64,000 nucleotides of DNA from Cystobasidiopsis lactophilus. Its lineage: Eukaryota; Basidiomycota; Agaricostilbomycetes; Agaricostilbales; Chionosphaeraceae. The notes under the pieces are model-generated. The model was given only the letters and a program-made list of their open reading frames with translations. It was not told where the DNA came from and made no database searches. Within the stretch, counting starts at the first letter, position 1, and each line of letters begins with the position of its first letter. Of the stretch, positions 432 through 57,274 are shown piece after piece. The translations under genes were made by a program, and so were the position numbers. The DNA lies in the NCBI GenBank assembly GCA_001599975.1, contig BCIO01000002.1:310001-374000 (forward strand). The letters run 5' to 3'.

Positions 432-1160
432 AGATAGGAGAGGAGGCAACCCTCGTATTGCAAAGTCTCCGCCGATCCCAGTGGCAAAGTGTGAATTATG
501 GCTCTACTTTCGATGGCTACGGGCACGCTTTTGAGGACCAGAAGGCAGAAAGTTGCACTTGGCCTTTGAAGCTAGAGCTGTGTGTGTCGAATCGCCAATT
601 GAATGGAGCGAAGTTGCTGTGGTGGCGGCGGCGAGTGCCAGTTTGGCCGGGTTGGTAGTGTCTGCGGCGCTGGCGTCTGTGCGAAGAAGGGGTTTGGATC
701 AGCCTTTCTGTTGAGGACGGGCTAAAAGGGGAGCCTCAACGCACAGAACGCAATTGGGACCTTGGTGGCCTTGCGCAAGAGTGGGAAGGTCGCCGGAACG
801 CCATGGCTTAGGTATGCGTCGCCAGCTGCTTCAGCGTACCCCGATTCGCAAATCGCTGCGGCGTAGTACTGGAGGTAGTAAACCAGCTCTCTCATCGTAC
901 CGCCCGAGCATGATGGAAGTGGTGAGCACGCTCTCTGGTGCCAATTGGCTGGCAAAGCAAAGCGTACGACACCCCACTGTTCGCACACAGGCAGCATAAT
1001 CAGCGCGAATCAACGGCTGATAGGAGACAAGGTGCAACGAACCCGAGTAGCCCGTCAGATAAGCCCGCTGCCGGTCGGCATTGTACGACACTTGAACCTT
1101 GAGGAGAATGTCCCCAATGCCGTCGGGATGGAAGGCGCCCGTGTTGGTAGAGGCCTAAAA
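432..1160 (-). pseudogene. truncated tandem copy of the CE1-like esterase
   Basis: This stretch is a diverged copy of the 3' part of the intact esterase at 1962-3144. Exons 2-4 and introns 1 and 2 are recognisable, including the GTTCGT donor and the 61-nt second intron, and the spliced nucleophile motif would read GYSVGC. The copy lacks nearly all of exon 1, and with it the signal peptide. It also lacks about 126 bp of the last exon (copy B positions near 2100-2226), which held the GFSHTQ catalytic histidine; GGTGGCGGCG-like microhomology flanks that gap. Without secretion signal and histidine it cannot be a working esterase. It abuts the last exon of the orphan gene at 1160-1852. Confidence 0.8.
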
Positions 1161-1852
1161 CAGCTTTTGGCCACCTGTAGCCGATGAAGGCGATTCATGG
1201 TTCGGACCAGCAAGAAATGGAACCCGGAAGTCAGCTCACTGGCGCACACCTCGTCAAGCTTCCGGTCACTCATCCATCCAAACCATTCAAGGCTCCGCTC
1301 TGAAGTAGCTGCAAGCGCCTCTATGGACGCAGCGACCTGAGATTATAAGCAATGCAAACGATCAGAAAGTTTCACGGTGAGGCGAGGCGAGTACCGTCAC
1401 TCACTATCTCGACATGCTCATCCCACCCCTGCATCTCATCGACGTCTCTGTCCGACCGAAGTGGAGCGGACACCATGTCTCGCCCTTCAGGCTGCCGGCA
1501 GAGTAGGCGCTCCAGAGCAGGCCACATCGTCGTCAAGGGCAGCGAAAGCTCGTCCATAAGGTATGACCACCACATAGTTTCCGGACGGTGAACAGCGTAG
1601 TGCAAGATGATGGCCAACAGCAGGGGGTGTTCCACGAAAAAGCGCCTTGCAGCAGGAGGGGGCGCTTCGCGTACGCCCGTCTCCTTGTTTTCGGAGAGCA
1701 GCAACAAGAAGCTCCTTACTTGCCGGTTCAGATGCTTGAGGGAGTAGAGGCCGCGCTCATAAGCTGACCGTGTGTTCCAGTTCCACACAGGCGACGCTTC
1801 GTCGGCCTTCTTCTGCAAAATGCGTTCCCTTTTGCGGAGGACTTCAGACATG
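1160..1852 (-). CDS. orphan protein, family C (possibly a distant member of family B)
   Basis: Not recognised. The likely start is ATG at 1852 (MSEVLRKRERILQKK), and an open frame also continues upstream into the duplicated tail. Exon 1 ends at a strong GTGAGT donor after ...DEHVEI, and exon 2 begins at 1336 (VAASIEALAATSERS) in phase 0. A further donor after ...RKLDE is likely, so the 3' end is uncertain. The protein looks helical, with a Leu-rich block and a Trp-rich stretch (TMWWSYLMDELSLP). The order Leu-rich segment, short E..G[RD]D block and exon ending in DE before GT resembles the family B genes near 30 and 33 kb; I treat that kinship as tentative. It sits between two esterase copies. 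Confidence 0.5.
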
Positions 1853-1961
1853 GCCAAAAGCAGCAAAACAAGTCGTCTGCCGTTTGAGATAGCCTCCATG
1901 AAATAGGAGAGGAGGCAACCCTCGTATTGCAATTTAAGTGTCCGCCGGTCCAAATTGTGAA

Positions 1962-3144
1962 TTATGGCTCTACTTTCGATGGATACGGGAGCGCTTGTGG
2001 GAACCAGAAGGCAGCAAGTTGCACTTGGCCTTCGAAGCTAGAGCTGTGTGTCAAATCGTCAATGTTGAGAGCGAAGTTGCTCTGTGGTGGCGGCGCGGAC
2101 TCACAGTGCTTGAGCAGCCACTTGTACACGCCCACCTGGTCCCAAATCTGGTACTGCATTTGAGTGTGGCTGAAACCCTTGAGCTGGGTGTAAGAGACGC
2201 ATTTGCCACCGTCGCTCTTGAGCTTGTTGGCGGTGGCGAGTGTCAGTTTGGCCGGGTTGGTAGTGTCTGGGGCGCTGGCGTCTGTGCGAACAACCGGGTC
2301 AGATCAGCCTCTCTGCTGAGGGCGGGCTAAAATGGGGGCTCCACGCACAGAAGGCAATTGGGACCTTGGTGGCCTTGCGCAAGAGTGGGAAGGTCGCCGG
2401 AACGCCATGGCCTAGGTATGCGTCGCCAGCTGCTTCAGCGTATCCTGATTCGCAAATCGCGGCGGCGTAGTACTGGGGGTAGTAAACCAGCTCTCTCATC
2501 ACGCCACCTGTGCATGATCGAAATAGTGAGCACGTTCTCTGGTGCCAATTGGCTGGCAAAGCAAAGCATACGACACCCCACTGTAGTTACACAGGCAAGA
2601 CAATCAGCATGAATCAACGGCTGATAGGATGAAGGTGCAACGAACTCGAGTAGCCCGTCAGATAAGTCCGCTGCCGGTCGACATTGTACGACACTTGAAC
2701 TTTGAGTAGAATATCCCTAATGGCGTCGGGATGGAATATTTCCGTGTTTGTAGGAGCCTGTGCGACAGTACTTACGCCATATCCTCGGTCTGGATGAAGG
2801 GAACGCCTCGAACGCACAATGGGGAAGACCGTGACAAAGTTCTCGTGTATGAACTTGCCCTCCGCGGTTGTGTTGCGAGACAAGGTGCCATTTAGGTAGT
2901 AGCCCACGCCAGAATAGGTGGACTTGACGCGGGCGCCGGCCAAGTTGCTTCTCGCTCCAGAGGCAGTGAGGAAGACCAGCAACGGCGATTTGGCCTTGTG
3001 GGGTTGGTAGTTCTTGGGCAGGGAGACGCAATAAGAATACTCCTTGTGAGGGGCTGGCGCAGCGTAGCAAGGCCAGGGAGCGGAGGCCGACGCGAAGCCG
3101 GCGAGAAAGCCGGCCAAGCTGAGGACGAGAAGGGCGGCTTTCAT
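1962..3144 (-). CDS. secreted CE1 / PHB-depolymerase-like esterase
   Basis: Predicted secreted serine hydrolase of the carbohydrate esterase 1 / polyhydroxybutyrate depolymerase-like group (feruloyl, acetyl-xylan and related esterases). The spliced model has exons 3144-2646, 2580-2534, 2472-2349 and 2281-1962, with introns of 65, 61 and 67 nt, and gives 329 codons in frame. An N-terminal signal peptide is clear (MKAALLVLSLAGFLAGFASA). The first junction restores the nucleophile elbow GYSMGC (G-x-S-x-G), and the last exon carries GFSHTQ with the catalytic histidine. An aspartate in APDTTNP is a candidate third member of the triad. The exact substrate cannot be told from sequence. A decayed copy lies downstream. 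Confidence 0.85.
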
Positions 3145-3760: not shown

Positions 3761-5525
3761 TTACTTATGCTCGACGATCGAGCCGGTGGCCGATGGGAAC
3801 CGGCGTGACGAGGCTGAAAAGGTTCGGCCTGGTGGCAAAGTGTTGGCGCCACCGGTCGATTTCAAAGGCGCACGCTTTCGGATGACCAGTGGCGTAGGTG
3901 GGAGAGGCTTGTTGTAGTCGGTGGTCTTGGCCAAGGACGAGGCCGTGGCTGCGGCGAAGCGAGGGACCGCCTTGCCCGAAGTGCTGGTGGCGGTGGCGGT
4001 GGCGACGCTGGCGTGAGAGACGACCCTCTTGCTGGCATGCGAATGCTGGCCTCCTGCTCCACCTATACCCGCTCCAAATGGTGCCACCGAACTCTTGGCG
4101 GAGACCGCAGTTTTGGCAGAGCTGCCACTCGCCACTCGGCTGCCCATCGACATGCCCGGCTCCCTCATCGACGACGAAGAAGCGGTTCTACTCTTGAGCG
4201 AACCAAGAACGGGATAATGAGGCACAGGCGAGTCCGGTGGGTGGTAGGCAGCCGTCGGGCGAGTTGGCTTCTCGAGGTGCAGGGACGGCTTGGGGCGGGT
4301 GATGGCGCTGAACTTGTCGGCTCCAGAAGCCTTTCGGACCGGCGACCTGGTGGCCAGCTTGTTGGGCGACGCTGTCTTGCGCCTGAGCTTGCTCTGCTGC
4401 TGCGAAGGCAAGGAGCTGCGGCGGCGGGCGCGTTCACGCTCTGGGTTCAGGACTGGCTTGCGGGTGAACTTGATCGGCGCTTGGAAGGAGACAATCCGAG
4501 AGGTCTTGGCAATTGGGGGCTGGGCAGGCTTTGAAGTGCCGGCTTCGTCGAGGCGGACACGTTTGAGGGAGCGCGAGACGAGGGACTCGGTGGCCAAGTT
4601 GATGGCGGCCTTCTTGGATTTGGAGCCAGCGTCGTCCTGCTGCATCATGGAGGCGCTGCGCTTGCGTTGAGCGAGCATAGAAGTCGTAATGGACTCCATG
4701 CTGTGATCACCTGCTGCTTCAGTGCTGATCTTTTCACACAAGAGGACGAGAACCGCAAAACGCACCGTGAGAACTCGCGCTCGTGAGCCTTGTCAAACCT
4801 GCCCCCGCCGCCCACAGAACTCTTGCTCGCACCAGTCCCACCGCCAAAGAAGGAGCCGACCAGACTGCCGAGCATATTGGAGGCCTTTGAGAGGCGCGAC
4901 CCAACCGAGGATGCGAGGTGCGCCTGTTGCCCGGCCGAGGACTGGATCTTGGAGTTCATATCGCGAACCTGGGGCGAGATGGCGTCTTCGAATGCCGCTC
5001 GAGTGCCACGCGGGTCACGGGCGGCAGCGGGCGAGCCAAAGGCGAAGGCTTCTGTTGGGCTGAAGATGTGGCGGGCGCGCTCCTCGTCCAGGGAGGTGGG
5101 CGAGCCGCCAATGAGGATCTGGGAGGATGAAGCCGCGCGGACAGCCCGTATCGCCGGCCCAGATGCACGAGGTGGCGACCAGTCGAAGGACGACGAGCCG
5201 TGTGTGACCTCCTGCGGCTCGTCGATGTCCATAGCGTTGCTGTCACATTCTTGTAAGGCATTCGATTCAGCGGTAGCATCGTCAGCGGCGGCGGCGTCAG
5301 CCTCAGCCAAGCGACTCTGCGCAAACAGGCGCAGCCGAGCTTTGAGGGCATCTGGCGACTGGCTCGCGGCTTCAGAGCACGAAAGCCGGGTTGGACTGAG
5401 CGACTTACGCCTTTGCTGGGCAGTCCAGACCGCTTGCAAAAGTCAACCAGGTCCCGCTGATTGTACAGAGCACTGTCGAGCAGGGTCGACCTTTCAAGTG
5501 GACACCCGTGAGTTTGTGGCAACAC
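3761..5525 (-). CDS. Ser/Ala-rich low-complexity protein, unrecognised
   Basis: Not recognised. Exon order on the minus strand: a short N-terminal exon (LLDSALYNQRDLVDFCKR, ending at a GTAAGT donor), a long middle exon with MDIDEP and Gly/Ser-rich tracts, an intron with a GTGCGT donor near 4783, then a basic Ser/Pro-rich exon to the stop at 3761. Two basic clusters (RKRSASM; REKTASP-like SP/TP sites around PNKLATRSPVRK) suggest nuclear localisation and proline-directed phosphorylation, but that is inference. No catalytic domain is visible. The true start codon is unresolved: the frame upstream of the first exon opens with GTG, so another short 5' exon may exist. Confidence 0.6.
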
Positions 5526-5951: not shown

Positions 5952-7560
5952 TCACAACTCGAATCCCAAGCTCGGTCTAGCCCCCAGGCCGCTCTGTAGC
6001 GCAAAAAAGATTGAATATCGGATGTTGATCAGATTGACAAGGGTGAATCAGAGCTTACCTTTTCGTAAATGGCGTCGATGGCCTTCATCTGGCCGATCGA
6101 GTCCTCAGCGGACATCCAGTACTGCGGTGCCTTCTCGCCCTTGACCTTGTCCACAAACGACTTCAGCTGGTACGTGTAGGAGGCCATCTCTTCCTTCTCG
6201 CCCTCGAACGAGTAATGACTCGTCGTCTTGGAGCTGCCGTTGGTGGTCACGGTCAGGTAGTTGAACAGGTGGGGCAGCACAAAGTTGGTGAGCGTCGCGG
6301 TGCCTTTGGTGCCCGTGAAAGTGATGTTGAATTGAGGGATGCCCTGGGCCTTAGGGTCCTCCTTCGCTGGGCCAGCGGGGCGATCCCACTGAAGGTCGCA
6401 CTGGAACGAAAATTTCACGCCGTTTCTGTGCACAGAGAAAGGCCAGACGTCAGTTTTAAAGGCATACTGAAGACAAAGCGACCTATAGCGCACTCGAAAG
6501 TCATGGACGCTTCCATCGCCCGGTCGATGCCTTCACCCTTAGTGGTGGCCGTGGCAGATTCGACGGTGGCGACCTCCGACTCCGTCACAAAGCGAGCCGC
6601 ACTGATAGGGTAAGTTCCTGTTTGCCGGCCTCAAATCATTAACAAGGTGGACTTTGCAAGCGTTGGGCGGGCCACAAACCCAAATCCATGACAGCACCAC
6701 CGGCGAGCTTGTAGTTGAGCCGGATGTCGTCGTCCTTGCAAATTCCAATAGGCAGCATGAAGTCGGCGTCGATGGTCTTGACCTCGCCGATTTGGCCGGA
6801 CTTGACCACTTCCTTCAGCTTTTGCACGGACGGGTGGAAGCGGTGGTGGAAGGCTTCGAGCAAGACCAGGTTTTTCTCTTTCTGTTAGACAACATTTCCT
6901 GCGTAATGAGAAGGGTTTCACTAGTGGTAAGGAAAGAAAGTCGAACGAACAGCATAGGCAAACACCTTGGTCGTTTCCTCGGCGTTGGAGCACGAAGGCT
7001 TCTCCAGCAAGACATGCTTGCCCGCTTTCAACGACTTCAGCGTCCATTCGTAATGCAGGCCGTTAGGTGACGGGTTGTAAATAGCGTCGATTTCTGGGTC
7101 CTCCAACATGGCTTTGAGGCATTCGTCAGCTTCATTATCGGTTCGGACCAAGGTAAGCTCGACAACTGACCTTCGTAGGAGTCGTACACTTTAGGAATCT
7201 TGTATTTGGTGGCATATTCAGTGGCTCGGGCTTTGTCTCGAGCTGCCACGCCGTGCTGAGGAGCGTCGGCGGCTAAGGACGTAAGCGCGCTGCCTCTCTC
7301 CTTTGCCATTCTCTGTGGGAAGTACTCACGAGAATAGCTCCAGGATACCACTGGCAAGGGTAGATGATAGCATTGGGTCCAATGGCAGCCGCACCTGTTT
7401 CGTCATGCTTTCAGAATCTTTGCTTCGAGAGCGAAGCAGTCGATTCGGGGGGCGAGACGCACCCAGGATGCCAATCTTCAATGCGCCTGCATCCTTTGGA
7501 ATAGTAGGAGGGTTGTTAAGGTACTCGGTGCGCTTTGTGAGCTCGTCGACGTAGTCCATG
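5952..7560 (-). CDS. Gfo/Idh/MocA-family NAD(P)-dependent oxidoreductase
   Basis: Predicted cytosolic dehydrogenase of the Gfo/Idh/MocA family, closest in style to dimeric dihydrodiol dehydrogenases that act on sugars or diols. The start is ATG 7560 (MDYVDELTKRTEYLNN). The Rossmann glycine motif is assembled across the first intron (KIGILG then AAAIGPNA). Downstream come the family's EKP motif (LLEKPSCSNAEE), EAFHHRFHP and LAGGAVMDLG. At least six short introns split the gene. The last exon is tiny: after IYEK an intron with a GTAAGC donor leads to SGLGARPSLGFEL and the stop at 5952. The substrate cannot be assigned. Confidence 0.85.
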
Positions 7561-26900: not shown

Positions 26901-27767
26901 CCAAAAGGCCAGAACGCTTGCTCAAGGTCTCTATGCCAACACAAAAGGCTCGCGTTCCTTTGGCAACCCCTATTTTTTGGAGAAAAAGTTCTGGCACGGC
27001 GGCACCGAGTCCTACGTTTTCAACATGCTGGAAGCCATTGCGATGTCCACCAACCCTCGGACGCCGGCTCTCGGCTGCGGCATTACCAAGGCCTTGCAAA
27101 AGTCGATGCTGCCAGAGAACGGCAAGGCCAAGGCGGGCGAGGACTATCTGCCGAGCCGGATCAACTGGGTGGTCCAGTCGTCGGGCGTCGACTACTTGCA
27201 CATGCTCATTGTCGCCATGACCTTTCTGTGCGGCAGATATGGCATCCAGGCCCGGTACATGATCTCTGTGCACGACGAGATCCGCTACCTGGTCAAGGAG
27301 GAAGACCAGTACCGAGCGGCGCTAGCCTTGCAGGTGGCCAATTTGTGGACCCGCAGCATGTTCGCCTTCTCCCTAGGTATGCAAGACTTGCCCCAGGTCA
27401 GCGGCCTCCTCTTCTTGCCTCAAAGTCGATCACTGATCATTTATGCGTCAAACAGAGCTGCGCCTTCTTCTCAGCGGTGGACATCGACCATGTCCTGCGG
27501 AAAGAGGTCAACATGGACTGCGTGACGCCTTCCAACCCGGACCCAATCCCTTCCGGCGAAGCCATCGACATTTTCCAAGCTTTGTCGAAGACTGGCAGCT
27601 CGCTGTACGCGGATGGGCGAAGCATGCTGGATGAAGCAAGGGCAGCCAGCGGGAGCTCGGTCAAGCGCCGGGCCGTCAATCTCAAATTCTTGGAGGCCCA
27701 AGCTGCGCCGGACAAGGCTTCTCTGAAAAAGATGACGCGCAAGTGGGATCACGAGGAGGAGTACTAA
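23880..27767 (+). CDS. MIP1: mitochondrial DNA polymerase gamma catalytic subunit
   Basis: Family A polymerase that replicates mitochondrial DNA. The start is ATG 23880 ([20 protein letters not shown]), a basic presequence fit for mitochondrial import. A GTGAGC-donor intron (about 23977-24040, unusual AAG acceptor) joins it to [20 protein letters not shown]. The proofreading exonuclease motifs are [22 protein letters not shown] and [13 protein letters not shown]. The polymerase motifs are A ([20 protein letters not shown]), B ([16 protein letters not shown]) and C ([12 protein letters not shown]). A last intron near 27396-27453 joins GMQDLPQ to [18 protein letters not shown]. Fungal-type C-terminal extension present. 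Length, about 1,240 residues, is normal for fungal Mip1. Confidence 0.95.
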
Positions 27768-27888: not shown

Positions 27889-29158
27889 TCAGGAGTCGTC
27901 CTCCTCGTCCCTGGTGGCCCTCGTGCTCGGGGCTGCGCTCTGCCGCCGCCGTATCGGCTTGGTCTCCTCCTTCCTCTTGGGAATCTCCACCATCTCGCCG
28001 TCGTCCTCCTCCTCCCCTGTTGCCGTCGCTGTCGCTTCCTGCTGCCCATCCTCTTCCTCTGCCAAGCCAGCGGCCGGCTTTGTGAAGGCAAACTCCTTGG
28101 ACTTGAAGTTTGGTGTGGAAAAGGAGGGCGAAAGGCGGGGCGCGGTCGAACTCGCTGGCGAGCCAGGGTTGGCTAGAAGTGTAGAAGACGGTACATTCTT
28201 AGCTGGGTTGAAGTGGCCGCACGCCGGGCACTTGTAAGCTGTAATCCCCATTCTCAAGTAAGGACGCGGACTTGGGCAAGAAAAGGGGGACGACGAGAAC
28301 GCACCGGTGATGGCCAGCTCCTCTTTGAGCACGAGGCCGTTGTGGTTGTGGCACTGGGCGCAGATGAGAGCGTATTTGGACGCCGGGCTGTCCTCGTTCT
28401 CGCCCAGCAGCGCATCCGCAAACTTGTCGACCCAGTTGCGCCGCTGGTTGAGCGTCATCTGGCCCGGTCCGCCGCTTGGGAGCTGTCTGCTGCTGCTATT
28501 GGTGCCGCCTATTGCCGCCGAGGACAGGGCGCCGGCTGGGGTAGAGTGCCGGGGCGCGCGGCGCTGCTGGAGCGGAGTGGTGGCCGGCGTGTTGGGGGCC
28601 GAGTACTTGTCCAGGAGGGATTTGGTCTCGTCGAACTTGGTCTGCTTCTTGATCTTATCGACCTGCTCCTTCTGCTGGGCCCGGAGCAACTTGAGCTGCG
28701 CCTCTGTGCAAACCACGCAGCGAAAATGCCAGTCAACAACGGCTCGCCCGCTCTGCTGGCAATCAGGACCTGCCACACACCTTGTCTGCCCCGTTTGCGC
28801 GAGTACCAAGAAGCCAGGACGGATCTGACGCCGTACACCAAGCCGGGGATGAGGACAAGGAGGGCGGCCTTGAGCAGCTCGGGCAGCTCGTCCTCGCCGT
28901 TGCCGCTGAGCCAGCCGAGGTACCAGGCGGCGGCGTACGCCATGTAGGCCATGCTCGAGTAGGACGTCCAGAGCAGCAGGGTGCGCTGCTTGGCCAGCGT
29001 GAGCTCTTGCAGGGCTTCCTCCCGCGTGGCAATGTCGTCCGCCAACCCGGCCAGGATCGACTCGAACGAGGCCGGCGGCTGCACCCTGTGTTAGTGCTGG
29101 GCTCTTTATCAGGGCAGAGCCACAAGCTCGCCTTCTTGAACCAGTTGAACAGCGGCAT
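27889..29158 (-). CDS. LNP1: lunapark family ER-junction protein
   Basis: Endoplasmic-reticulum membrane protein that stabilises three-way tubule junctions. ATG 29158 (MPLFNWFKKASL) is followed by an intron of about 45 nt, then a coiled segment (EEALQELTLAKQRTLLLW), two closely spaced hydrophobic segments (SSMAYMAYAAAWYLGWL and LLKAALLVLIPGLVYGV), and a coiled coil (KEQVDKIKKQTKFDETK). The C-terminal lunapark zinc ribbon is split by an intron: ALICAQCHNHNGLVLKEE then YKCPACGHFNPAKN, four cysteines in two CxxC pairs. An acidic tail ends at 27889. It converges on MIP1 with 121 bp between stops. Part of its upstream DNA is duplicated at 31.8 kb. Confidence 0.92.
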
Positions 29159-29210
29159 TGGGCTGGGAAACGGCTGATGACGGGCAGGAAATAAACAAGC
29201 TCCAAGTGCG

Positions 29211-29219
29211 GGTGGCAAA
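29211..29219 (+). promoter_or_regulatory. GGTGGCAAA element upstream of LNP1
   Basis: Exact GGTGGCAAA 53 bp upstream of the LNP1 start codon (the gene reads on the minus strand). The surrounding block, GGTGGCAAAATTTNTGG followed by GCTCATGGTTTG, recurs at 31.84-31.89 kb. Confidence 0.4.
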
Positions 29220-29473
29220 ATTTCTGGTGGCCGCTCATGGTTTGGTTTGCGTGTGGAAAGCTAGTCTATGGGATTGCAGAGGAAGAAGGAAGGTCTATTC
29301 AAAGGTGTCGAGGGCGTTTGCAAAGAAGGAGAAAGCCGACAGCGGATTGAATGCAGTGCTTTTTTCAGCCAACCAGCATGCCAATCACCTGAGATCTAAA
29401 GTCAGCTTCAGAACCGTCGAGATAATCGACGAAGTAGGACCAACTTGAGCGGAAGGAAGTAGAAGCCAAAGTG

Positions 29474-31052
29474 TCAAAAACGGACCCACCCCTGTGGAAG
29501 AGCCGCCGCATAGTCAAAAGCCAGTGCCAACCTTGCGCTCCAATGCACTGACGGCTGGAGGGCGCATGCATTGGAGCGCAACTGCAGAATTTCGACAAAA
29601 GCCAAGGAGCGCGACATGTAGAGAAAGATGACGCTCAGGTGGTGCTGTACTTGGTGTAAGGCGCTTCGTCTGTCTTCCGTCGCCCCATGCAGCTGATGGA
29701 GTTGGGTCTGCGTAGAATACTGAGCGACATTACATGTAGACGAAGATGGAGGTGGCACTTGCATTGTAAGTGTGGCAGATGAGAGCGCGAAGCTGATCGG
29801 CACGCCTTGAGCATACTGGTATGCGCCGAAGAATGGATGGGGGGTGTCTCACCTCGTCAGACACCTTACGGAGCATTTTATCGACTCCAGCAAGGTGGTT
29901 GGCTGCAGCGTAATCTGTCGGCCATTGGTGCCCGGCAGCGCGCTCATCAAGCTCCTCGAGGGAGGCCTTGACTTGATCCACTTCAGGCTCGATGGTGTTT
30001 AACTGAAACCTGGTCGCAGAATCGTGGACCATCTAGGCCACATCTCAGCGTTCTGAAGCGACAGCTCTGATTCACGACCGCACCTGTAACAGTCTTGGGA
30101 CAAGCTCGTTTGGTTTGTCCATGTCCGGAATGAAGCGTCGGAGAAGCAAAGCTTGGAACTCGACGAGCAGGTCAGTGGCATCCGATGATAATTCATGGAT
30201 GGCGTCCGCCACAGCTTCCGAACGACCATGGGTTCGGACTCGGCTGTCGGCTGTCCCTTGGACGAAACGCAGCTGGGGGCTACGTCAGCTCGGTGTAGAC
30301 ATGACAGTAATCCCTCACTGAAATAGAAGCCTGGCCAAGTAGAGCAAGGACGTCCCCTTTCTGCTCGGTCCAGTTGACCAAGGCGTCTAAAGACAGCCAA
30401 GGCACTCCAAGGCAACGCTCTCGCAAGGAGCATATATCCTCCTGGCTGCGATGTGTCCATTGATAGCTGAGAACGCGCAGTAGGCTAACGAAAAGCACTT
30501 TGATCTCGAGCTTGAGCAGCAGTTGGGCCTAAACTAGCAATCAGGCCGTGGCAGCAATGGAATACACGAGGCCATGAGTACACACATAATGAAACGCTTT
30601 CAGTGAACTTTCGGGTATCCCGCCATGGAGCAAACGTTGGTGCGTGATGACAATCTCGCACTCCAGAAAACGAGCCTGGTGGCGAACGAGCCCGTCAGTC
30701 TTGCAATCTGAAGCCTCGGCTTTTCCGACCGCACCTCTTCAAGTCGAGCGGAGATTTGATCCAGAGGATGAGTATGCCAGTGCCCCAAGTTTGTAGTCCT
30801 CGCGGCGGCGGCAAGGTATGCATCTCGCTTTTCGATCTGAGGCACGAAAGTCTCAATTTCCGCATCGAGCGCTTCCATATGGTCACAAAATTCGCTTACA
30901 GTAGATTTTGCGATGTCCAGCTTGCACGTCTCAGGCATTTTGTCGTCCGTTCTAATCGTTCTCACTTGAAGCTGGGTCCTGTCGGCCAATTTGCACCACG
31001 CGGCGAAGGATTGGTCGACAATAGCTCTGACCGGGTCATTTGAGGAAGTCAT
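29474..31052 (-). CDS. orphan protein family B, copy 1
   Basis: Not recognised; paralogue of the gene at 32084-33658, with almost the same genomic length. ATG 31052 gives MTSSNDPVRAIVDQSFAAW. Exons then read ARFLECEIVITHQRLLHGG, AQLLLKLEIKVLFVSLLRVL, LSLDALVNWTEQKGDVLALL, LLVEFQALLLRRFIPDMDK, and VDKMLRKVSDE just before a donor. The last exon contains ALHQVQHHLSVIFLYM and FVEILQLR and ends PQGWVRF at 29474. The protein looks helical, with no signal peptide, transmembrane segment or catalytic motif. Every landmark has a counterpart at the same place in copy 2, which is what makes the model credible. Exact splice sites are only partly fixed. Confidence 0.6.
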
Positions 31053-32083
31053 TCGTGAGTAATGATCCCTCTGCGCAATGGGCCTTCGTGGTTTGGGAGG
31101 AAGAGGGACGGGCCGCATTCCAAAAGGAAGTGTCGAGAAGGCGTCGTCACGTCAACAAGAGCAGGCAAACAGGCTCTCGTCTTACATTTGCCACTCTCAC
31201 TCTCTGACACGCCAAGCCAAGACGACTTTAGACAAGCACTGTCAAAGACGGAAGCGCAGGCGCAAAGACAAGTGACAGCAGCAAAGGGCTTCCTTCTCTG
31301 TGGGTATGTGCCAACTTGTCTCACCTGTTCAAGACGAAAACTTGTCCGATTGGCTGCATACACGAGAAAGGAGCAAGAGCCCAGCCTGACAAGTAGCAAT
31401 GATCTGATGCTTGATGCAGGAGATGCCAGCCACGCCCGCGCATTGGCACCCCCAACTCTTCGTAGGAACTTTGTATCAAGTCAAAGAAGGCATCGACGGC
31501 CGGAAAGAAAGCCGTTCATAAGGCCGCTCTCCATCCCGCTCAAAGGGGCCAAAAAAAAGGCGGCAATTTTTCGAGCTGCGCTCGCATTGAAAGACCAGAG
31601 CCACACTGGCAGCACTTCCATAAGACACGAATTGACATCATGTAGTAGTCAAATCAAGCAAACGGTGGCAACCAAGGTCCAAGATTGATGCGCAGTTGAT
31701 CATGATGGCACGCAGCAAATTGAGCGGCTCTGGTCAAGCTTCTGGCTGGACCTGCACCGTCACCATCTCCGGCAACCTCGTCTTTCAATCCGCAGTTCAA
31801 CTGGGGAACGGCTGACTTCGGGCAAGAAGGATCCAGCTCCGCAGGTGGCAAAAGTTAGTGGCAAAATTTTTGGTCGTTGGCTCATGGTTTGCTTTTGTAC
31901 GGCTAGTGTAACAGAAGTCAGAGATGAAGATGGAAATGCAATCTAAAATGTATTCGCAGAGGGGAGGAAGCCGCCAGCAGCCCTTTCGCCCTTTGCCACC
32001 GCCTAAGATGCTGTCAGAGTGGCGCGTCAAAGTGTCACGGAGAGAGCATTACCTCACAGGAGTAAAGGATCGAGCGGGAGCGG
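31053..32083. other. duplicated promoter block and unit junction
   Basis: No convincing gene. 31100-31400 is the upstream region of orphan copy 1 and is clearly similar to 33720-34020, upstream of copy 2. 31600-31790 resembles 34250-34420. From about 31797 the sequence matches the DNA just upstream of LNP1 (29160-29260), marking the junction between two tandem units. Two GGTGGCAAA elements occur here (31844-31852 and, reverse, 31992-32000). Confidence 0.65.
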
Positions 32084-33658
32084 TCAGAAACGTGCCCAGT
32101 CCTTGGGAAGAGCTGGCTCATGCCTGAGGAGCAGTGCCAGAGTCAAGCGTTGCGGCAAAGTCGCAACAGCTCGGAAGCGGAGTCTTAGAACCTCGACAAA
32201 GATGTGGCATCGCTTCAGAAGGAGGTAAATGACGCTCAGGCGGCGCTGCACTTCATGAAGGGCGGCTGGTCTTGCGGCGGTACGCGCATCAGCGGGCAGC
32301 GAAACCAGCGCAGACAGTTCAGTCTGCTCTTCGTCTCAGCATTGGCACTTGGGCGCTGCAATCGCTCTTACTCTGTAGACTTCCGAAATTAGGAGCCCGA
32401 GCTGCTGCTTCTTCAGTACTCTAGCAAAGACTTCAAAAAAAAAAAGAGGAGCCCTTACTTCATCACACACGCCCCTCAGGACATTTGCGATGTGGGACAG
32501 ACGGTATGGGGCTTCAATTTCGAGTCGGTTGGAGCTCGTGGGACTGTTAATTAAGTCGCCAAGTTTGCCAAGTGCGTGTTCGATCTTCAGTAGGGCTGGC
32601 CCAGCCGATTTGAAGTCGTACTGTTTGACAGACTGTTTGGCCTCCTGGTTGCAGCTTATTTCAGAGCTGCGGTCATGAAGAATAGGGTTTGCACGAACCG
32701 AGAACGTGGTGGCGAAAGAATGATCCGCTGCCATGACCGGAATCAAAGGACGCAGTAGGCCAGCCTGGAAGTCGAGAAGCAGTTCGGCAGCCGCATTTGA
32801 CTTGGCTTGTGCTACTTCTACTATTCCCGGGGATTGTCCTCGCTCGCTCGCCCTTTGCCACGATCTCCGCAACTGCCAATGCTTCAGGACAACTTCTCTG
32901 TGCGCCATGATGGTCACTTACAACTTGTGATACCGTCTCGAGCAAAGCAAAAGCATCCCCTCGGGCCTCCGTCCAGCCGATGAGGCTATCTAGGCCCATC
33001 ATTTGACTCGTCTCAGCAGGAATGTGGGTCGCAATATCGCGTAAACGGCCATCCTTGGCGTGAGCCCGTGTGTAGCTGTGAACACTAAGAATAGTGGCGA
33101 ACAAGAGTTTGATTTCGAGGTTGAGCAATAGTTTAGCCTGTTGCAATTTGTCAGCTTTTTTGTCGCCAAGGAAGGCTGGACGATAGTAGTACGTAGCGGA
33201 AAGGCTTTCGCAGCTCCTCCTCGTGGTGGCCCTCCAAAGAAAGTCGCTCAAGGATAATAACATCGCATTCTACAAGGCGGGCCTACGGCGGACAAAAGGG
33301 GTGAGGACTTTGGCCGCCCGTGGCCTTGGGTTCGCGGACGCACCTCGTCAAGCTGGGCAGGCAATGCCTTCATGGGATGCTCGATCCAGTGCTGCTTGAG
33401 AGTTTCGTACTTCTTCTTTAAGCACAAGTTCACCTAAGATGGCAGATTCAGCTTCAGCCCGTCAGCCAAGTCTGACGCGGGGCATGTCGCAAGCTGGCTA
33501 CCTACAGCATCAGAAATCATGTTTGTATGCGAAGAGACGAGGAACGGGTGGTATTCTTCAATCTTCTTGAGTTGGATCAGAACCCGGTCGGCGAGAGAAA
33601 GCCACTGCGGGAATGCTTGCTCAACAACAGCGTTCAACCCCTCAATTGGGTCAGACAT
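32084..33658 (-). CDS. orphan protein family B, copy 2
   Basis: Not recognised; paralogue of the gene at 29474-31052. ATG 33658 gives MSDPIEGLNAVVEQAFPQW. Later exons read LKKKYETLKQHWIEHPMKAL, ARLVECDVIILERLSLEGHH, AKLLLNLEIKLLFATILSVH, LDSLIGWTEARGDAFALLET, AAELLLDFQAGLLRPLIPVM and HIANVLRGVCDE (then a GTAAGG donor). The final exon reads TELSALVSLPADARTAA, ALHEVQRRLSVIYLLL, FVEVLRLRF and ends LPKDWARF at 32084, matching the ...LPQGWVRF end of copy 1. The two copies share only part of their residues, so the duplication is not recent. No domain is visible. Confidence 0.6.
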
Positions 33659-34859
33659 CCCGGCGCGGTAAGTGCTGTGCAGGGAGGGAACGTTGATGCT
33701 GAGTCGTGTTCGCTTGAGAAAGAGGGGGGCCTTCGAGGCGACCCCGGCGAAACAGATGCATTGAGAACCCGTCGTCACGTCAACAGTAGCAGGCAAACAG
33801 ACGCTCGTCCTAGCTCGTCCTACATTTGCCTGTTCAATCCTCTGTGATACTAAGTCGAGGCGATCATAGACGAGCTTTGGTCAAATGCAAATGCGCAGAC
33901 GCAAAGACAAGCGACAGCGGCAAGAGGCCTCCTTCTCTGTGGGTATGTGCCAATCTCTCGCGCCTGTCCAAGACGAGAAGCTGTCTGATTGGCTGTATAC
34001 ACGAGAAAAGAGCAAGAGCAAAGCCTGAGCAGAAGTATGAAAGAACTGGGATTGACGAGAGGCTAGGGCTGCCGGCGTCTGAGCCCGTTTGGCCACCCAA
34101 TTCAAAGCGCACTCTCTAATCAAGTCACAGACACGATTGCCACCCAGAAAACAAGCAGCTTCCAAGCAGTCTGCCAACCTAGCTCAGAGCGGTCAATTTG
34201 GAAGGCAGTTTGTCGAGCCGCAGACTGAACAAAAGCCGCGAATCGCGCTCCAAAGGCATTTGTAAGACACGAATGGGCAGTTCTAAAGCGGTCAAGTCTG
34301 GCAGAAAGTGGCAACCAAGACTTCGGGCTTGGTTGATGCGGCGCAGGAAATTAGCCTCGGCTCGACTTGCTCCGCCGCCATCCTCAGCAACTCTGGCCTC
34401 TGTAGGGGAATAATGGCCGAGATGATGGACCGCGGCTCGCTGGATCGCCGTCGCCCTCGCCCAAGGCTGCTTCACTAGTCGGAATCGTGAGTGGCAAGAT
34501 TTATGCGCAAAGGCTCCTGGACTGATTGGTTCTTGCTGGCTTCTGCAGGCTCATTCTTGTAGGTTCGTTGGTCGCATTAGGCAGAGACCAGACGTGTAGA
34601 CTGACGGCCAGTTGGATTGGATAGTGCTGACTGAGGAGGAGGAGGCTGCATTGGGCTTTGGGAAAATGAGCGTGCGTTGCTAGTCCCCTCTTCCTCCTTG
34701 CCCCCGCCGTCCTCATGCCTTGCTGGATTGACCCACAGTACCTAAAGATGGCAAGGTCGCCATCAAGCTCATCTCCAGGACGCTAATCAGGCTACTCTAT
34801 GGTGCGCTTGCCTTCCCGCTCAGGCCTTTTTCGTGTTGGCTGAACTTTTGCCACCCAGG
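33659..34859. other. intergenic, promoter of family B copy 2 plus an uncertain open frame
   Basis: 33720-34020 is the duplicated family B promoter. A minus-strand open frame at 34179-34475 (ending RLDKLPSKLTALS) has modest coding character, but its counterpart in unit 1 (31590-31800) is interrupted. It may be an old exon or chance. The 3' end of the stretch is the leader of the next plus-strand gene. Confidence 0.45.
34847..34855 (-). promoter_or_regulatory. TTTGCCACC element next to a start codon
   Basis: Exact TTTGCCACC ending 4 bp before the ATG at 34860. At this distance it would lie in the 5' UTR, so if functional it may act as an initiator or downstream element. Confidence 0.35.
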
Positions 34860-50642: not shown

Positions 50643-51906
50643 TCAGAACCTCAGCCTGACCTCCTGCACCTCCCACTCCTCGCCCAACCACGCGTTGACG
50701 AGCGCTTCGACCCTGCTTTCCAGCCGCTTCGCCTCCGCCACGGTCAAGCCCTCTGCCTGGCCGGCCACGCGCAGCTCCAGGACGCTCTTTGACCCGCTCT
50801 TGAACAGCGTCACTTGCTCCACTTCGCCTGGTAGTTCGACATCTGTGGAATCCCGGAGGAAGGCGAGGAGGGAGTAGGAGTAAAGCCTAGGGTTGGGCGA
50901 GGCGTCGAGCAGTTCTAAGAGGGAGGTGAGCAGGAGGGAGAGGCCTTGATACGCTATGACTCCTGTTCGTTTCGACGTTCTCGGCATCTAGACATGTGTA
51001 GATAGAGGGGAGCAGGAACGAACCTGCGACGATGATCCCGCCTAATGGGTCGGCGAGGTGGAAGCCGAAGTAAGTCGTTCCCTGTGCGATGTCCGGTACA
51101 AGTCAGCTCCAATGCGCGATAAGTAGCTAAGAGGTTGAAGGAGGACGCACGATCGCAACGAGCGCTACGAGGCCGGACCAAGCGTCTGACCGGTGGTGTA
51201 GCGCGTTGGCGGTGAGCACATTGGACTTTTCTTCCTTAGCCACCTTCATTGCTGTTCGCCGATACCCTTACTTCCTTAGCATAGATCTGAATGCTTAGGG
51301 TGGAGGGAAAGGGCAACGAACTGATGCGGTAGAGGTACTCCTTGATCAAGATGGACGCCAGAGCGAACCACGCTGCGTTGGGGTCCAGCTCGCCATGGTG
51401 GCCGCCGTGGCCCGCGTGCTCGCCGTGTTTTAACAAAGCCCAAGAGTGCATTCCTGCAAAACAGCACCCACACATCAATCGCCGCTTCCGAGCAATTGAG
51501 GCTGAGGAGGGTGCAAGCTCACCAATGCCGGCGCCTCCGCCAATCAACAGGCCCGCCACCGCTGCCGAGCCCAGCGATTCGAACTTGCCGTAGCCCAACG
51601 TAAACCTCTCGTCCGCCCCGCGCGAGGCCAGGCGGAGGGTGGCGAGCACGACGCAATCGCCCAATAAGTCGCTCAAAGAGTGGAACGAGTCGGCCAGCAG
51701 CGACGCGCTGTTCAGATACCTGCATCCACGCCACACGCCACCTTGAGTACGATAGATGAACTGGCTTAAAGCACGAACAGGGCAGCGATGGCTTTGACGC
51801 AGGCGAGGGCGATGTTGGTCAACAAACCGACCAAAGTGATCCACGAGCCCCGGCTGCTCGTCGTTGCTGGGCCATGCGAATGCGAGTGCGAGTGCGAGTG
51901 AGCCAT
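50643..51906 (-). CDS. cation diffusion facilitator (CDF) metal transporter, MMT-like
   Basis: Membrane antiporter that exports divalent metals (iron, zinc or manganese) from the cytosol or mitochondrion; style is that of fungal Mmt1/2. The likely ATG at 51906 begins with a His/Ser metal-binding run (MAHSHSHSHSHGPATT), though an upstream exon with a targeting sequence may exist because the open frame continues to a TTG near 52020. Helix 1 is ITLVGLLTNIALACVKAIAA. Helix 2 has the metal site ADSFHSLSDLLGD; helix 5 has the matching ALHHRSDAWSGLVALVAI. YFGFHLADPLGGIIVA and a C-terminal ferredoxin-like domain (VEQVTLFKSGSKSVLELRV) follow to the stop at 50643. Six or so short introns. A decayed copy of the 5' end lies at 53.9 kb. 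Confidence 0.85.
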
Positions 51907-52307
51907 CGCCAAGGCCACCGCTTCGGGGCAAAAGCGAGAAGGCGCTTGGAACTCAGGTCGGCGTGCGGAGGGAGGACCAGTGGGTGGTGGCGAACGCTCT
52001 CGGTCATCCTCAGGGCTCAACTATAGTTATGGCGATCTATGGAAAGAGATTTCAAAAGTACAAGAAGTGGAAATGGTCAAAGCGAAGGTCAGGGGGAGAG
52101 GGCACAAGAACCAGCTTGAGCTCCACTTCGCTTGCCTAGGCTAAAGAGACTGAAGCGATATTGGACGGGGAGACGAGATAAAAGTACAGAAAGAGATGGT
52201 GGTGCATTGGTGAAAAGGAGGGGGGCATAGGCGGAGGTGATGGAGGGACGATGATCACTTCCTCTGGCCGGACGGGCCGGGCTGTGTTTTGTATGTCAGC
52301 TGCTGGA

Positions 52308-53558
52308 CTACAGGGCTGTCGTTGTGGGAGAAAAGCGCACTTGGGGTTTGATCATCCGCTGCAATAATCCAGACAATTTGGGCCGCAATCCCCGGTGAAG
52401 CGGCTGTTGAGCAGCGGTAGGAAGGGCAGCGGGTGCGGCGGCGGAAGGACCAGCCCGATTGTGTTCGAAAGCCATCCGTGGCAAACCCGCTGGCACAATG
52501 TGTTGACCAGAAGCAGCAGGGGGTGCAGGCGAGCCAGTGCGAGATCGGAGAACGGGAAAGCGGACAGCAGGAAGTCCAATGTCCGCATAGTTTTCGACTT
52601 CGGCAAACGACATGAACTCGACCTTTCGGGGCGTGTGCTCCCATGAGGGATGGAGCTCGGAATCGTGGGGTCTCTCGACGATCATCACCATCCAGCGGTC
52701 GTGACTGGGATGGCCAGTCTCGAGCGGGTCCGGCTCGCCAATGATGTCCACCCATTGGGCAGCAGGCTGAGCCCACTTTGAAACTGGTCGTCAGATAGGC
52801 GATGAAACTTGAGGTGGTCAGCTTACAGTATTGTCGGCACGGGCGTGTGCCATCGGAAACGCAACCTCAGAGGGTCCTGCGGCGAACTTGTTGCCCAGCT
52901 GATACAACCCTGGCCTTGAACACAGAATGTCAAAAACCAATAGGTTGACTACTCACCTGGAGTTCAGCGGCCGAGCCCCCCTGCCTCATCAGAGAACCGA
53001 ATCATCAGGAGGAACTTTGTGGTGAGATCTAGGCTGAGGTCCTCACCAATTTCTTCAACTTATCACTAAAGTGCAACCAGACGCCGTATATGACAGTCCG
53101 AGCCAGTTTTTCCACAAGATCGGCGGCAAATTCTCCTGCGGCATTCTTGAAGCCTGTCCCTCCCCTTTGCGAAAACTTCTGGAGCTGGCGCGACACTTGA
53201 CCAAGGCGGTGAATACGAGGAAAGCTGGCAGCTTACAATGTCGCGGCTGTACAAGCTGCATAAGTCATGATAGGCGTGGTCGTTCGTAGCTTCGCCCTGT
53301 CGATGGTCCGGTTTGACACAGGGTCGCTCTCGGGTATGAAAAACCACTTACAAAACGCCACTTGTAAAAGACTTCTATGGCACGCTTGACATCATCCCAA
53401 GAGCCGCCCGCCGTTGCGTCTCTGAGCCTGGGAATGATACAGTCGAAGGCTTTCTTTTCTTTGGCATAAAGTTCACCGATGAGATATTCTGTCTTTGAAT
53501 GTTCCAGGCGACCATGCGTGCCAAAAGGAGAGTAATCAGGCCTTGCCGGCGCAGCCAT
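52308..53558 (-). CDS. orphan protein family A, copy 1
   Basis: Not recognised; first of three tandem paralogues. ATG 53558 gives MAAPARPDYSPFGTHGRLEH; an in-frame extension upstream (VRYYQIFDDL) resembles copy 2, so the start may be earlier. Family block 1: LRDATAGGSWDDVKRAIEVF YKWRF region. Block 2: AGEFAADLVEKLARTVIYGV followed by WLHFSDKLKKL and a GTGAGG donor. The last exon starts near VDIIGEPDPLETGHPSHDRW, contains MVMIVERPHDSELHPSW and ends VRFSPTTTAL at 52308. Rich in Trp and Tyr, no signal peptide or membrane helix. Its tail is longer than in the other copies. Confidence 0.55.
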
Positions 53559-53882
53559 GAGGTCGTCAAAAATCTGGTAGTAGCGGACCAAGGAGCGAGG
53601 AATGCAGAGCAGAGAGCAGTCGCCTTAGTGTTTCAAGAATGTCTTTTGAGCAGCTTCTGGCAGGACCCCGTCCTCGGAAACAGCAAAGGCCGAGGGGCAT
53701 GCAAAACAGACGAGAGCAGATGCAATCTTCGGAGTCCAAGTACATAAGCCGGGGCAGCCCGCCAAGAGTTTTAGCGAGACACATTGGAGTTAGACATCTA
53801 AAACTTGAACAGAATTGGAAAGAGATACGCTGGCCAGGTAGCTCTTAAGTCAAAGTAGACGATTCAAGCAATGCATTTGCAA

Positions 53883-54133
53883 GTCGACCCGCCGACCACA
53901 GTGATTCACGAGCCCCGGCTGGACGTGGCTGCTGCTGTGGCATACGAATGCAACGAGAATGCGAGCGCGAGTGACAGTCGCCGAGACCACTCTTCAGGAA
54001 AGGGCCAATGAAAATGGTGTCACGATTTGAGCGAGTTCGGAGCGGACGCGTGGGCGGTGGCGAATCTCAAGATGACTTTGAACTTCAGGCAATGGGTATA
54101 TTTTAAGACGGGTTTCAAAAGTACAACGAGCCG
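53883..54133 (-). pseudogene. decayed copy of the CDF transporter 5' end
   Basis: Matches the start of the CDF gene (51820-52070) in order and orientation: the block GTGATTCACGAGCCCCGGCT pairs with GTGATCCACGAGCCCCGGCT, followed by the GCGAGTGCGAGT-like His/Ser-coding repeat, now interrupted, and then TTTCAAAAGTACAA. No transporter exon beyond this follows, so only the 5' tip was duplicated. It marks the junction between orphan copies 1 and 2. Confidence 0.75.
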
Positions 54134-54329
54134 CTAAGAGCCTAAAGCTAGAAGAGGGGGAAAATGCACAAAAACGACCTTGCAAGCCCTTCCCTTTCTC
54201 AAGATAGCAGGACATAGCTGAGGTGATAAGAGTACAGATCGGGATAGCGAAGATGGCCAAGAGCATGCTGGGGTGTTGTATGGAAGAAGGCGGCGTGGTC
54301 CGTCATTGTTGGAACTGGATTTCCGCCAA

Positions 54330-55422
54330 TCACTGCTTGCTGCCACGCCCGCGAACAACATTGCCCAAGTTTCGAAGTTTATGAGCCTCTGAAGCACGCG
54401 TGGTGGGCCTGTCAGCGAATGCCTTTGCAATTTCCGCGTAAGGGTGGAAGGTGCACGGGACGGGTTCGTCCGCTCTGCCCTTCGACCTGTTGAACCTTTT
54501 GAAAAATCGGTAGATCGGGGTAGGCTTTTGAATCACAGTGGGCTGAATGTGGTGGTCTGAGATGAGGAATACGCCGGCCTGCGAAGGATGCGCTTCCCCC
54601 TCAGGTTCTGTCCAGTGTGGCGTCGGACCGCTTGGCTGTTCGGCAGTCTTAATTTTCAGTCGCATTGACACAGCGGATGGCAATTGTAAGAGGAACGCAC
54701 AATGGCAGATTGGAGGCCGCTGCCGACCACTACGTACTTCTGTCCAGACCGCAGCTCGATCGTACTACCCGTCTGAGAGCAGGACTGAGACTGGTCAGCT
54801 TCTTTGGAGCAAACTCTCCAACTCACCTTGGAAGCATGCTTCAGCCATTCGTTCAAAGGAGGCTGGTTTAGGGGGATTTTGGTCAGCGTGCACGCGGTTG
54901 GTCCCACAATGGGACGAGACCACTCACAAGGCATGTGAGCTCATATCCCAGGTTCCACCATATCTTCTCCATGACCAGGAGGCACATCTGCTGCACCTCC
55001 CCGGCCACATCGGTGAACTTGCCATGCTCTTTGTACACCTTCAGCTGCAGCAGGCCCAGAATGACCTTATTCGCTCCTTCTTCCGTTCGTTAGATGACGG
55101 CTTACAATAATTGCAGTGCACGCGCCGCTTTCTTGTGCCTTGTCCCCGTCGGACTCTTCCCAGCCCTGATGAGCAGATGTGAGCGCGGCCGCCCACCCAC
55201 CAGACTCAATAAACATACGTAATACGAGATGAAGAGGCTGCTGATGTCCTGTTTGACGGCCTCCCAATGACCTTCAGACATCTCCTTTCTGACCTTGGCG
55301 AACAACGCGAGCCGCTCCTTCTGAACTGACGCGCCGTCTGAAGCAGCTGAAGCGATAGCCTTTCGACCTCCACGTCCATGCAGACCCGTGAATTTGTAGT
55401 AGCGAGAGTCAGGCGCTGACAT
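54330..55422 (-). CDS. orphan protein family A, copy 2
   Basis: Not recognised; paralogue of copies 1 and 3. ATG 55422 gives MSAPDSRYYKFTGLHGRG. Block 1: ERLALFAKVRKEMSEGHWEA then VKQDISSLFISYY. Block 2: EVQQMCLLVMEKIWWNLGYE before a donor. Later exons read PPLNEWLKHASK and TGSTIELRSGQKYVVVGSGL. The last exon (HIQPTVIQKPTPIYRFFKRF) is basic and ends NVVRGRGSKQ at 54330. Blocks 1 and 2 occur in the same order and spacing as in the other copies; the C-terminal exon does not align well with copy 1, so the tails diverge fastest. Its promoter block (55495-55607) is duplicated upstream of copy 1 (53628-53740). Confidence 0.55.
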
Positions 55423-56130
55423 GATGAAGCGGACTTTGAGAGAAACTTGGGCTTGGTGGCAGAGCAAGGAGTGCAGAGCAGAAATCAGTCGCCATAGCGT
55501 TTCAAGAAGGTCTTCTGCGGAGCTTCTAGCAGGACCCTGCCCTCGGAAAGAGAGAAAAACCGAGGGGCATGCAAAACAGATGAGAGCAGAAGGCGCATCC
55601 CCAAGCCGGCCTTTTCAACGTGCTGATCTGGGAAGCTGAGGCTATTCATCCTGAACCCGAGCAGAACGAGATCAGTTCACAAAACACTGAGCAAGTCGAT
55701 GTCCGAATGAGCGTCAAAAGGACAACCGCGCGCCGAAAACCACGAAGTGACAATGACATCTTCAGCCCGGCGTCGCGCTTGGGTTGCGATGTTCATTTGT
55801 GATGATGCTAATAATAAAAAGCACCGCATAGGTTAAAGGACGGACAAGGACTGCAGAAGAGCTGGAGCAGCCTGGCAAGCGGACAAGTTTGCGGCGCGTG
55901 GTTGGTGGCAAAGTCGGTTGGCCAGGGCCCATGGCCCCGATTGGCCAAAGCTATACACATATAAGAGAGGGTAGTAAATGAAAATGCACAATGAAGAAGC
56001 AAGATATAAGGGAGGCCGAAATAGGGATAGCGAGAAGCGAGTAGCGTTGACTTTGAGTGGGAAGCCAAGAGTACCTGAGAGTATGCATCAGCAGAGTAGA
56101 GTGAAGAGGTGGGACGTCATTGAACTCACC
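55423..56130. other. intergenic between orphan copies 2 and 3
   Basis: Holds the copy 2 promoter, including the block 55495-55607 shared with 53628-53740, and an exact GGTGGCAAA (55914-55922). The part near 55980-56045 (AAATGAAAATGCACAATGAA) weakly resembles the DNA below copy 1 and copy 2. No coding exon seen. Confidence 0.5.
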
Positions 56131-57274
56131 CTAGCGACGGTTTCCGGAGGCGCCCACAGTTGCAGCCTCAGCCTCAGCCTTCCGCAGATCCTGCAAGGAC
56201 ACGAACACCAGTCTATCGTCCGCAGGCGAATCGCCGACCATGAGCAGGAAACCTTCAATCTATATACCATGACGGCAGAAACATCACATATCTGTACAGG
56301 AGCCAGACCAAACTGGGACATGACTCAACTCCGACGCCGCCAGACCGTAAGTGGTCCTCCTTCCAGCCCTCGAAGTTGCTTGGAGGAGGAAGTCCCGTCA
56401 GCCACGCTTCCGAGTTTTTTCTCAAATCTGTGGCATCGAAGAACTCGGTCCACTGTTTGAAGCGGGCAAAGTCCACTCTCAATATGATCGAAAGAAACCG
56501 AGCGAGGCACTCACAGTGTTGGCAGTCGTGCCATAGGCGACAACGGTAGCTTCTGAGGATGGACCGTGTCTGAGTCGAGTTCCAATCTAGAACAAGGGTG
56601 GTGAGGCGAAGGACAGATCAAAGTGCCTGCGCTCACCCCAGGAATGTGCTTGCGCATGGTGGCATTTCCATAAGCTTCGGGCTAAGCGGGTACAAGCCAT
56701 AGATAATCTCTCCAGTGAGAACTCTGCGTTTGTCTAGCGGAAAGGCAGAAAAGCTCACAATACTGTGATGCTCCCAGCCCAAGTGGTACCACACGCCCAT
56801 CAGGACATCGTGGATCATGCCCCTGACAAAGTTAGACCGAATTGCTTCTGCTTTGGGTGAGGATTTCATGAGACATCGAATCTGGGGTGAGCAAGCGCCA
56901 GCGGTCAAGTCGACGTTGCAAGATGGGAAGGCAGCAGCAAGCCGGCTCACTATGCGAATAGCGAGCGTATCGCACTGCCTCGCGCTGGCGATGTCATTGG
57001 CTTTGTCTTGCTCGTTCGTAGCCTGACGTGCAACGTCGCCTTTAATCTTGACATCCCAGAAGTAGAACTTGTAGAAGCGCCAAATCTCGACCTGAGCTTC
57101 GGTCCATTTGCCCGCCAACGCGTACTCTGCGATCACACCGAGTCGAACGTCTCGTTCATCGACATGAGAGTCCTCGCCGGCGTTGAAACCCGTCGGCAGA
57201 GGGTCGCGGCCTTGATGGACATCCGGAACAGTAGTACGGGCATAGTGCGCCGCCGTATAATGGTGTTCGAGCAT
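56131..57274 (-). CDS. orphan protein family A, copy 3
   Basis: Not recognised; paralogue of copies 1 and 2. ATG 57274 gives MLEHHYTAAHYARTTVPDVH. Block 1: RLGVIAEYALAGKWTEAQVE then IWRFYKFYFWDV. Block 2: RSNFVRGMIHDVLMGVWYHL followed by GWEHHSIV. A later exon reads FKQWTEFFDATDLRKNSEAW and LPPPSNFEGWKEDH. The last exon, DDRLVFVSLQDLRKAEAEAA, ends ASGNRR at 56131; its position corresponds to MVMIVERPHDSEL in copy 1. No known domain. The family core is two amphipathic blocks about 150-200 residues apart. Confidence 0.55.

Follow-up and report, generated by a model that had tools for sequence, protein, structure and literature searches.

Three loci in a 64-kb stretch of DNA from the basidiomycete Cystobasidiopsis lactophilus (G000:C2:310001-374000, within a 22.1-Mb genome of 8 contigs; the whole stretch is called the window hereafter) each carry a conserved gene, a partial direct copy of it and one or more orphan genes, and they reflect a real, recurrent and ordinary kind of duplication. 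Each locus probably derives from its own head-to-tail tandem duplication, about the size of a gene (~1.6-2.7 kb), in a genome densely packed with genes. The conserved gene is esterase-like at locus A, a lunapark gene (PF10058) at locus B and a CDF cation transporter gene (PF01545) at locus C, the last two scoring above the Pfam cut-offs; searches of the orphans A1, B1, B2, C1, C2 and C3 against Pfam gave nothing better than E 0.05. Gene models were obtained with a small custom splice-aware predictor, were mended by hand in some cases, and are approximate. Introns are short and, like the genes present, were judged to be basidiomycete-like.

Locus B contains the following features:
34434..34527, minus strand: a third, weaker lunapark-leader copy lying upstream of B1
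31801..34527, minus strand: duplication unit 1, sharing 31894-31801 with unit 2
33763..34028, minus strand: B1 leader, 80% identical to the B2 leader
32084..33658, minus strand: orphan B1 (model, 400 aa, 6 exons)
31801..31894, minus strand: lunapark-leader copy that separates B1 from B2
29163..31894, minus strand: duplication unit 2, extending into the lunapark 5′ end
31135..31389, minus strand: B2 leader, counterpart of the B1 leader
29474..31052, minus strand: orphan B2 (model, 406 aa, 6 exons)
27889..29238, minus strand: lunapark model, full length

The segments 34527-31801 and 31894-29163 formed one unbroken collinear alignment of 2861 columns (55.6% identity, E 6e-89), that is, two adjoining units in the same orientation. 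Since unit 2 ends inside the lunapark 5′ end and the units meet at 31894-31801, the middle leader copy represents a tandem-duplication edge. The lunapark 5′ copy scored above all 500 shuffles, and the B1 and B2 proteins are 37% identical, with several splice sites in common. A CCAAT box, an element with a known promoter role, was seen by eye in both B leaders (33990-34005 and 31350-31365), which suggests that the conserved leader may act as a promoter.

The same arrangement of two collinear, adjoining units was found at locus C:
56131..57274, minus strand: orphan-like model C1, a candidate only as kin of C2/C3
55462..55592, minus strand: C2 leader, 85% identical to the C3 leader
54330..55422, minus strand: orphan C2 (model, 272 aa)
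53861..53999, minus strand: dead copy of the CDF 5′ untranslated region (5′UTR) and exon 1, with the start codon lost and indels
53593..53722, minus strand: C3 leader, counterpart of the C2 leader
52255..53558, minus strand: orphan C3 (model, 317 aa)
50643..51906, minus strand: CDF cation transporter model, full length

Direct repeats were observed between 55592-55092 and 53722-53223 (60.6% identity) and between 54293-53861 and 52224-51796 (59.8%), with 139 bp separating the units. The CDF fragment lying between C2 and C3 is 75% identical to its source over 127 aligned bases, and the exon-1 copy scored above all 500 shuffles. Its differences are spread evenly over codon positions 1, 2 and 3 (9/37, 9/36 and 8/37) and the 5′UTR (6/23), and this evenness, together with the lost start, marks the fragment as dead. 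In a phmmer comparison within a set of 12, C2 and C3 proved homologous (E 1e-5), and C1 reached only E 0.05-0.13 against them. The idea that a CDF leader precedes every C gene failed upstream of C2 and C1 (365, 269 and 148 of 500 shuffles as high), where the best hint was a 35-base match upstream of C1 (E 0.009).

At locus A, three features were delimited within the window:
1962..3144, minus strand: esterase-like copy 1 (est1), split into two pieces by the predictor, with middle exons unsettled
1157..1899, minus strand: orphan A1 (exons 1899-1405 and 1336-1240 plus a short last exon), truncated at its 3′ end where it joins the esterase fragment
432..1159, minus strand: 5′-truncated esterase fragment beginning at exon 2 (exon boundary by eye)

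The minus-strand series thus reads est1, A1, a fragment from exon 2 onward and, in stretch L005 just outside the window, a third esterase-like copy. The direct repeats 2759-2178 vs 1156-572 (85.7%) and 2107-1901 vs 642-432 (82%) support this reading; overall, the fragment is 82-88% identical to est1, and the third copy is 65% identical to it over 3262-2006. At 1157-1175, the join between A1 and the fragment falls on the exon-2 acceptor, where both share a short AGGC (by eye), and the final residues of A1 resemble those of its relatives right before the cut. An earlier note on this DNA had described partial duplicates of the conserved gene or its leader at all three loci, and the direct duplications at A, B and C bear this out; the name esterase is not firm, the sister copy outside the window having sub-cut-off Pfam matches alone (DAO E 0.00035, Esterase E 0.012). 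The tandem minus-strand orphans that it reported are found upstream of the conserved gene as B1/B2 and C2/C3; locus A has the single orphan A1, and the kinship of C1 is unproven.

The frequency of such loci was estimated from 60 random 10-kb places drawn on contigs 1 and 2, with the window surroundings excluded, of which 22 (220 kb) were sampled; L005-L009 and L032 are chosen stretches and were left out of the rate. Local pairs were dropped if they overlapped, lay more than 6 kb apart, scored below 60 bits (first scan) or 42 bits (later scans), or were of low complexity (in one scan of 32 stretches), and every pair listed in the 32 scanned stretches was direct, none inverted. Local direct duplications were present in 4 of the 22 random stretches (L014, L016, L028 and L030), three of which (L014, L016 and L028) had a layout comparable to that of the window loci. 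The claim in the earlier note that three loci in 64 kb go beyond chance is not supported: against 4 in 220 kb of random sequence there is no significant excess (binomial p = 0.19), nor is there for the orphan layout alone (3 vs 3, p = 0.13).

In L014, the neighbour is a DUF3752 gene; an orphan separates it from a dead copy of its start, and beyond that start fragment lies a second, diverged direct repeat (~5250-5050 vs 4490-4300; 0/500 shuffles as high), which indicates two adjoining units there as well. In L028, a membrane-transport gene has its 3′ end duplicated, and the orphan lies between the two copies. The L016 pair, visible only at the 42-bit threshold, consists of two adjoining models whose leaders (4609-4479 and 3254-3125) are 75% identical and whose proteins show no significant likeness (E 0.04-0.07); the first orphan has sub-cut-off coiled-coil Pfam matches only, and the first 366 residues of the next gene, the candidate conserved neighbour, match nothing in Pfam. 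The flank upstream of that gene is duplicated (0/500 shuffles as high; absent from blastn output at E 0.01). L030 holds a tandem pair of a non-orphan, glycosyltransferase-like gene (identified by eye; no Pfam match).

A simple series of steps could produce these arrangements. One end of the duplicated unit would fall within a same-strand neighbouring gene, so that both edge genes would stay intact once and a junction fragment of the edge gene would be added. The order orphan, neighbour fragment, orphan, intact neighbour is the expected tandem geometry, and no special element is therefore needed. Both orphan copies would have been retained at B and C, where they are still seen; at L014 one would have been retained, the lost copy being presumed from its visible duplicated flank, and at A and L028 the loss of one orphan copy is assumed. 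The extra flank repeat of L014 is expected if the unit comprised flank, orphan and gene start, with one orphan deleted. Later on, the fragments would decay, the leaders would be kept, presumably for a promoter or 5′UTR function, and the orphan bodies would diverge very fast, as they have done at B and C.

Several observations weigh against this reading. No second copy of the contained gene was detected beside the fragment at A, L014 or L028: beyond the esterase fragment 428 of 500 shuffles scored as high as the best match to A1, in L028 the corresponding figure was 173/500, and in L014 the orphan had no clear match past the fragment (36/500; 9/500 for its 3′ part). Clean deletions must hence be assumed at these three loci, or else the orphan was inserted. 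Also, homology of the esterase fragment ends within a few bases of where the A1 ATG lies. The third lunapark-leader copy (0/500 shuffles as high vs the middle copy, 10/500 vs lunapark itself) suggests more than one event at locus B. Finally, divergence is not equal across a unit at B and C, where bodies exceed leader and fragment; that bodies are more diverged than a fragment from the same event is not predicted by a single event of one age. Identities were computed with one alignment setting and 200 two-base-block shuffles each (shuffled mean in brackets). At locus B they were 0.80 (0.56) for the leader, 0.77 (0.56) for the lunapark fragment, 0.61 (0.56) for exons 3, 4 and 6, and 0.57 (0.54) for introns; at locus C, 0.85 (0.58) for the leader, 0.75 (0.57) for the CDF fragment, 0.61 (0.56) for exons 1-3, 0.60 (0.61) for the last exons, and 0.59 (0.53) for introns. 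At both loci, exons and introns were each less alike than the fragment (Fisher p 0.0009-0.006, uncorrected and with sites taken as independent), the 3′ flanks were intermediate (0.64 at B and 0.66 at C), and the stretch from leader to ATG was at noise level.

Among the further duplications, L016 gave 0.62 (0.59) for the body vs 0.75 for the leader (p 0.004), with a body-like 3′ flank (0.64, p 0.66), and L030 had the opposite pattern, with 0.68 (0.57) in coding sequence and 0.56 (0.56) and 0.61 (0.55) in the flanks. In the tandem family A copies of L009 the coding sequence is the most alike part, which means that the contrast between leader and body is not general to orphans. Rough estimates of nonsynonymous and synonymous divergence (dN/dS) were below 1 (0.65/1.9 for B1/B2 and 0.98/2.6 for C2/C3), with synonymous sites near saturation, so that the orphan proteins look constrained but old and the dead fragments seem younger. 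Constraint acting on the leaders accounts for them alone. The likeness of the fragments could stem from gene conversion of flanks, from events of differing age or from tandem capture of divergent alleles; that orphan bodies have outrun dead neighbour fragments at B and C is the surprising residue of the analysis.

It is possible, if somewhat unlikely, that the duplications are simply old, with constraint, or gene conversion between adjacent copies, preserving the likeness of leaders and fragments and the bodies diverging at the ordinary fast rate of orphans. The rough, near-saturated dS values (1.9 and 2.6) agree with this, as do the dN/dS ratios below 1 and the CCAAT boxes in both B leaders; in the CDF fragment, however, the start is lost and no codon-position bias is present, so constraint is not obvious.

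We consider it doubtful that the orphans were inserted with long flank duplications, a process in which an orphan would be copied into a broken site and the filled-in ends would leave the end of the neighbour on both sides. In rice, insertions with flanking duplications reportedly arise from such patch-like break repair, and there, too, direct copies of the target flank the inserted sequence. The order fragment-orphan-fragment with a single orphan at A, L014 and L028 fits this process, and so does the fact that the families of A and L028 include dispersed members: family A occurs on contig 1 at C1:753 kb and C1:1079 kb and as two tandem genes at C2:3435-3437 kb, and a relative of the L028 orphan lies on contig 4 (L032:2943-3715, 36% identity over 89 residues). 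In L007, moreover, a family A gene is placed between 29-bp direct repeats (93%, 5086-5114 and 6114-6142). On the other hand, and in contrast to what is said of rice, no recent donor was found, the relatives of A1 being ~31-37% identical at the protein level vs 82-88% for the flanking esterase copies. Tandem units can be seen directly at B and C, L014 points to one by the extra flank repeat expected of such a unit, and the dispersed members in L008, L009 (family A) and L032 have no duplicated neighbours.

Just as doubtful, in our view, is the proposal that flanks and bodies differ in age, either because unequal crossing-over joined old divergent alleles, hypervariable ones captured with shared leaders, or because bodies were exchanged later. 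The identities of 80-85% for leaders and 75-77% for dead fragments vs 60-61% for exons and 57-59% for introns (shuffles 53-61%) are consistent with it; introns have diverged too, so that selection on the protein is insufficient by itself, and L016 repeats the contrast between leader and body. However, the profile comes from one genome and could also be yielded by gene conversion of flanks or leader constraint, the fragment is comparable in two pairs only (84 and 127 aligned bases), and the 3′ flank of L016 is no different from the body. A more specific version, to which we give slightly less credence, sees in the tandem orphans ancient, highly divergent alleles that belonged to hypervariable loci and were joined on a single chromosome by unequal crossing-over, recombination between haplotypes having kept the flanks alike as bodies and introns diverged. 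If true, clipped neighbour fragments would be a genome-wide signpost of balanced, recognition-like loci.

A mobile or hotspot mechanism shared by the loci and carried by the orphan genes, as the earlier note had proposed, is very improbable: the comparable layout at six loci (A, B, C, L014, L016 and L028) is in its favour, but it involves six families with no similarity to one another detectable by phmmer, the genome matches of the B2 and C2 leaders are confined to their own loci, dispersed relatives lack duplicated neighbours, and a preference for orphans is unproven where genes without Pfam matches are common. What survives of the shared mechanism is that the loci share a type of event, with tandem duplication at B and C and the layout in 3 of 22 random stretches; a mechanism borne by the orphans is not supported. 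The further suggestion that duplication is seeded at orphans is not borne out: 5 of 11 other gene models of the window also lack a Pfam match (1-2 exons tested per model; one of the 11 fuses at least three genes), and the four random duplications include the glycosyltransferase-like pair of L030. Likewise, the idea that orphans spread by capturing flanks is not supported, given the local leaders, the dissimilar families and the unduplicated neighbours in L008, L009 and L032, L007 offering 29 bp only. A single orphan superfamily is unsupported given the six mutually dissimilar families.

Tandem duplication of gene-clipping segments thus remains the preferred reading, and gene-clipping small duplications are an already known type of event. 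In Caenorhabditis elegans, partial or chimeric copies make up ~50% of young duplicates and the median span is 1.4 kb, and yeast duplicates that do not come from whole-genome duplication span about 2.5 kb and include no partial ones (PMC2728529). The scale is the same as here (~1-2.5 kb), and worm spans often fall short of whole genes, as they do in the window; worm and yeast pairs are, however, recognised by their gene bodies, whereas here the leader and the clipped neighbour are better kept (PMC2728529). In Drosophila yakuba, regulatory ends and exons are shuffled by tandem duplications, which can form new gene structures (PMC5460883). There too the edges of tandem units put parts of one gene beside another, although the fly cases are variants within a population and ours are diverged copies in one genome (PMC5460883).

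Among the titles and abstracts listed by literature searches, none described a layout of this kind in fungi. If the dead neighbour fragment was copied in the same event, it provides a built-in neutral clock for the orphan gene, and by that clock the B and C orphans would have changed faster than neutral sequence. Were this pattern to extend genome-wide, it would allow a direct test of whether runaway divergence, the capture of alleles or the replacement of bodies gives rise to orphans.

Concerning the distribution of the orphans, the B proteins matched each other only in a genome-wide protein search, and C2 and C3 gave self matches only, in a search that would miss equally distant copies; because C2 and C3 miss each other, C-type copies elsewhere are not excludable. 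No copies of the L014 orphan were found elsewhere in the genome by a search too weak to link C2 with C3. In a large collection, protein searches with families A and B scored 7998 candidates each and gave no match at E ≤ 0.01, which says little on orphan status since the lunapark positive control gave only 2 distant relatives. Inspection by eye revealed no obvious N-terminal signal peptide in the B or C proteins.

In the window as a whole, Rfam at gathering thresholds and a tRNA scan gave 0 matches each. The word TTTGCCACC, near several gene starts, was set aside; it occurs at 11 places in the window, where its close variant TTTTGCCAC is merely 1.3 times as frequent as the Markov expectation. 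Outside the window, downstream of an HP1-like model (by eye) in L005, a 183-bp direct repeat (6005-6187 and 6292-6475, 84%, spacing 287 bp) was noted and, given its location, excluded from the duplication count. Between the described loci, 24043-27396 encodes a mitochondrial DNA polymerase (PF18136, PF00476).

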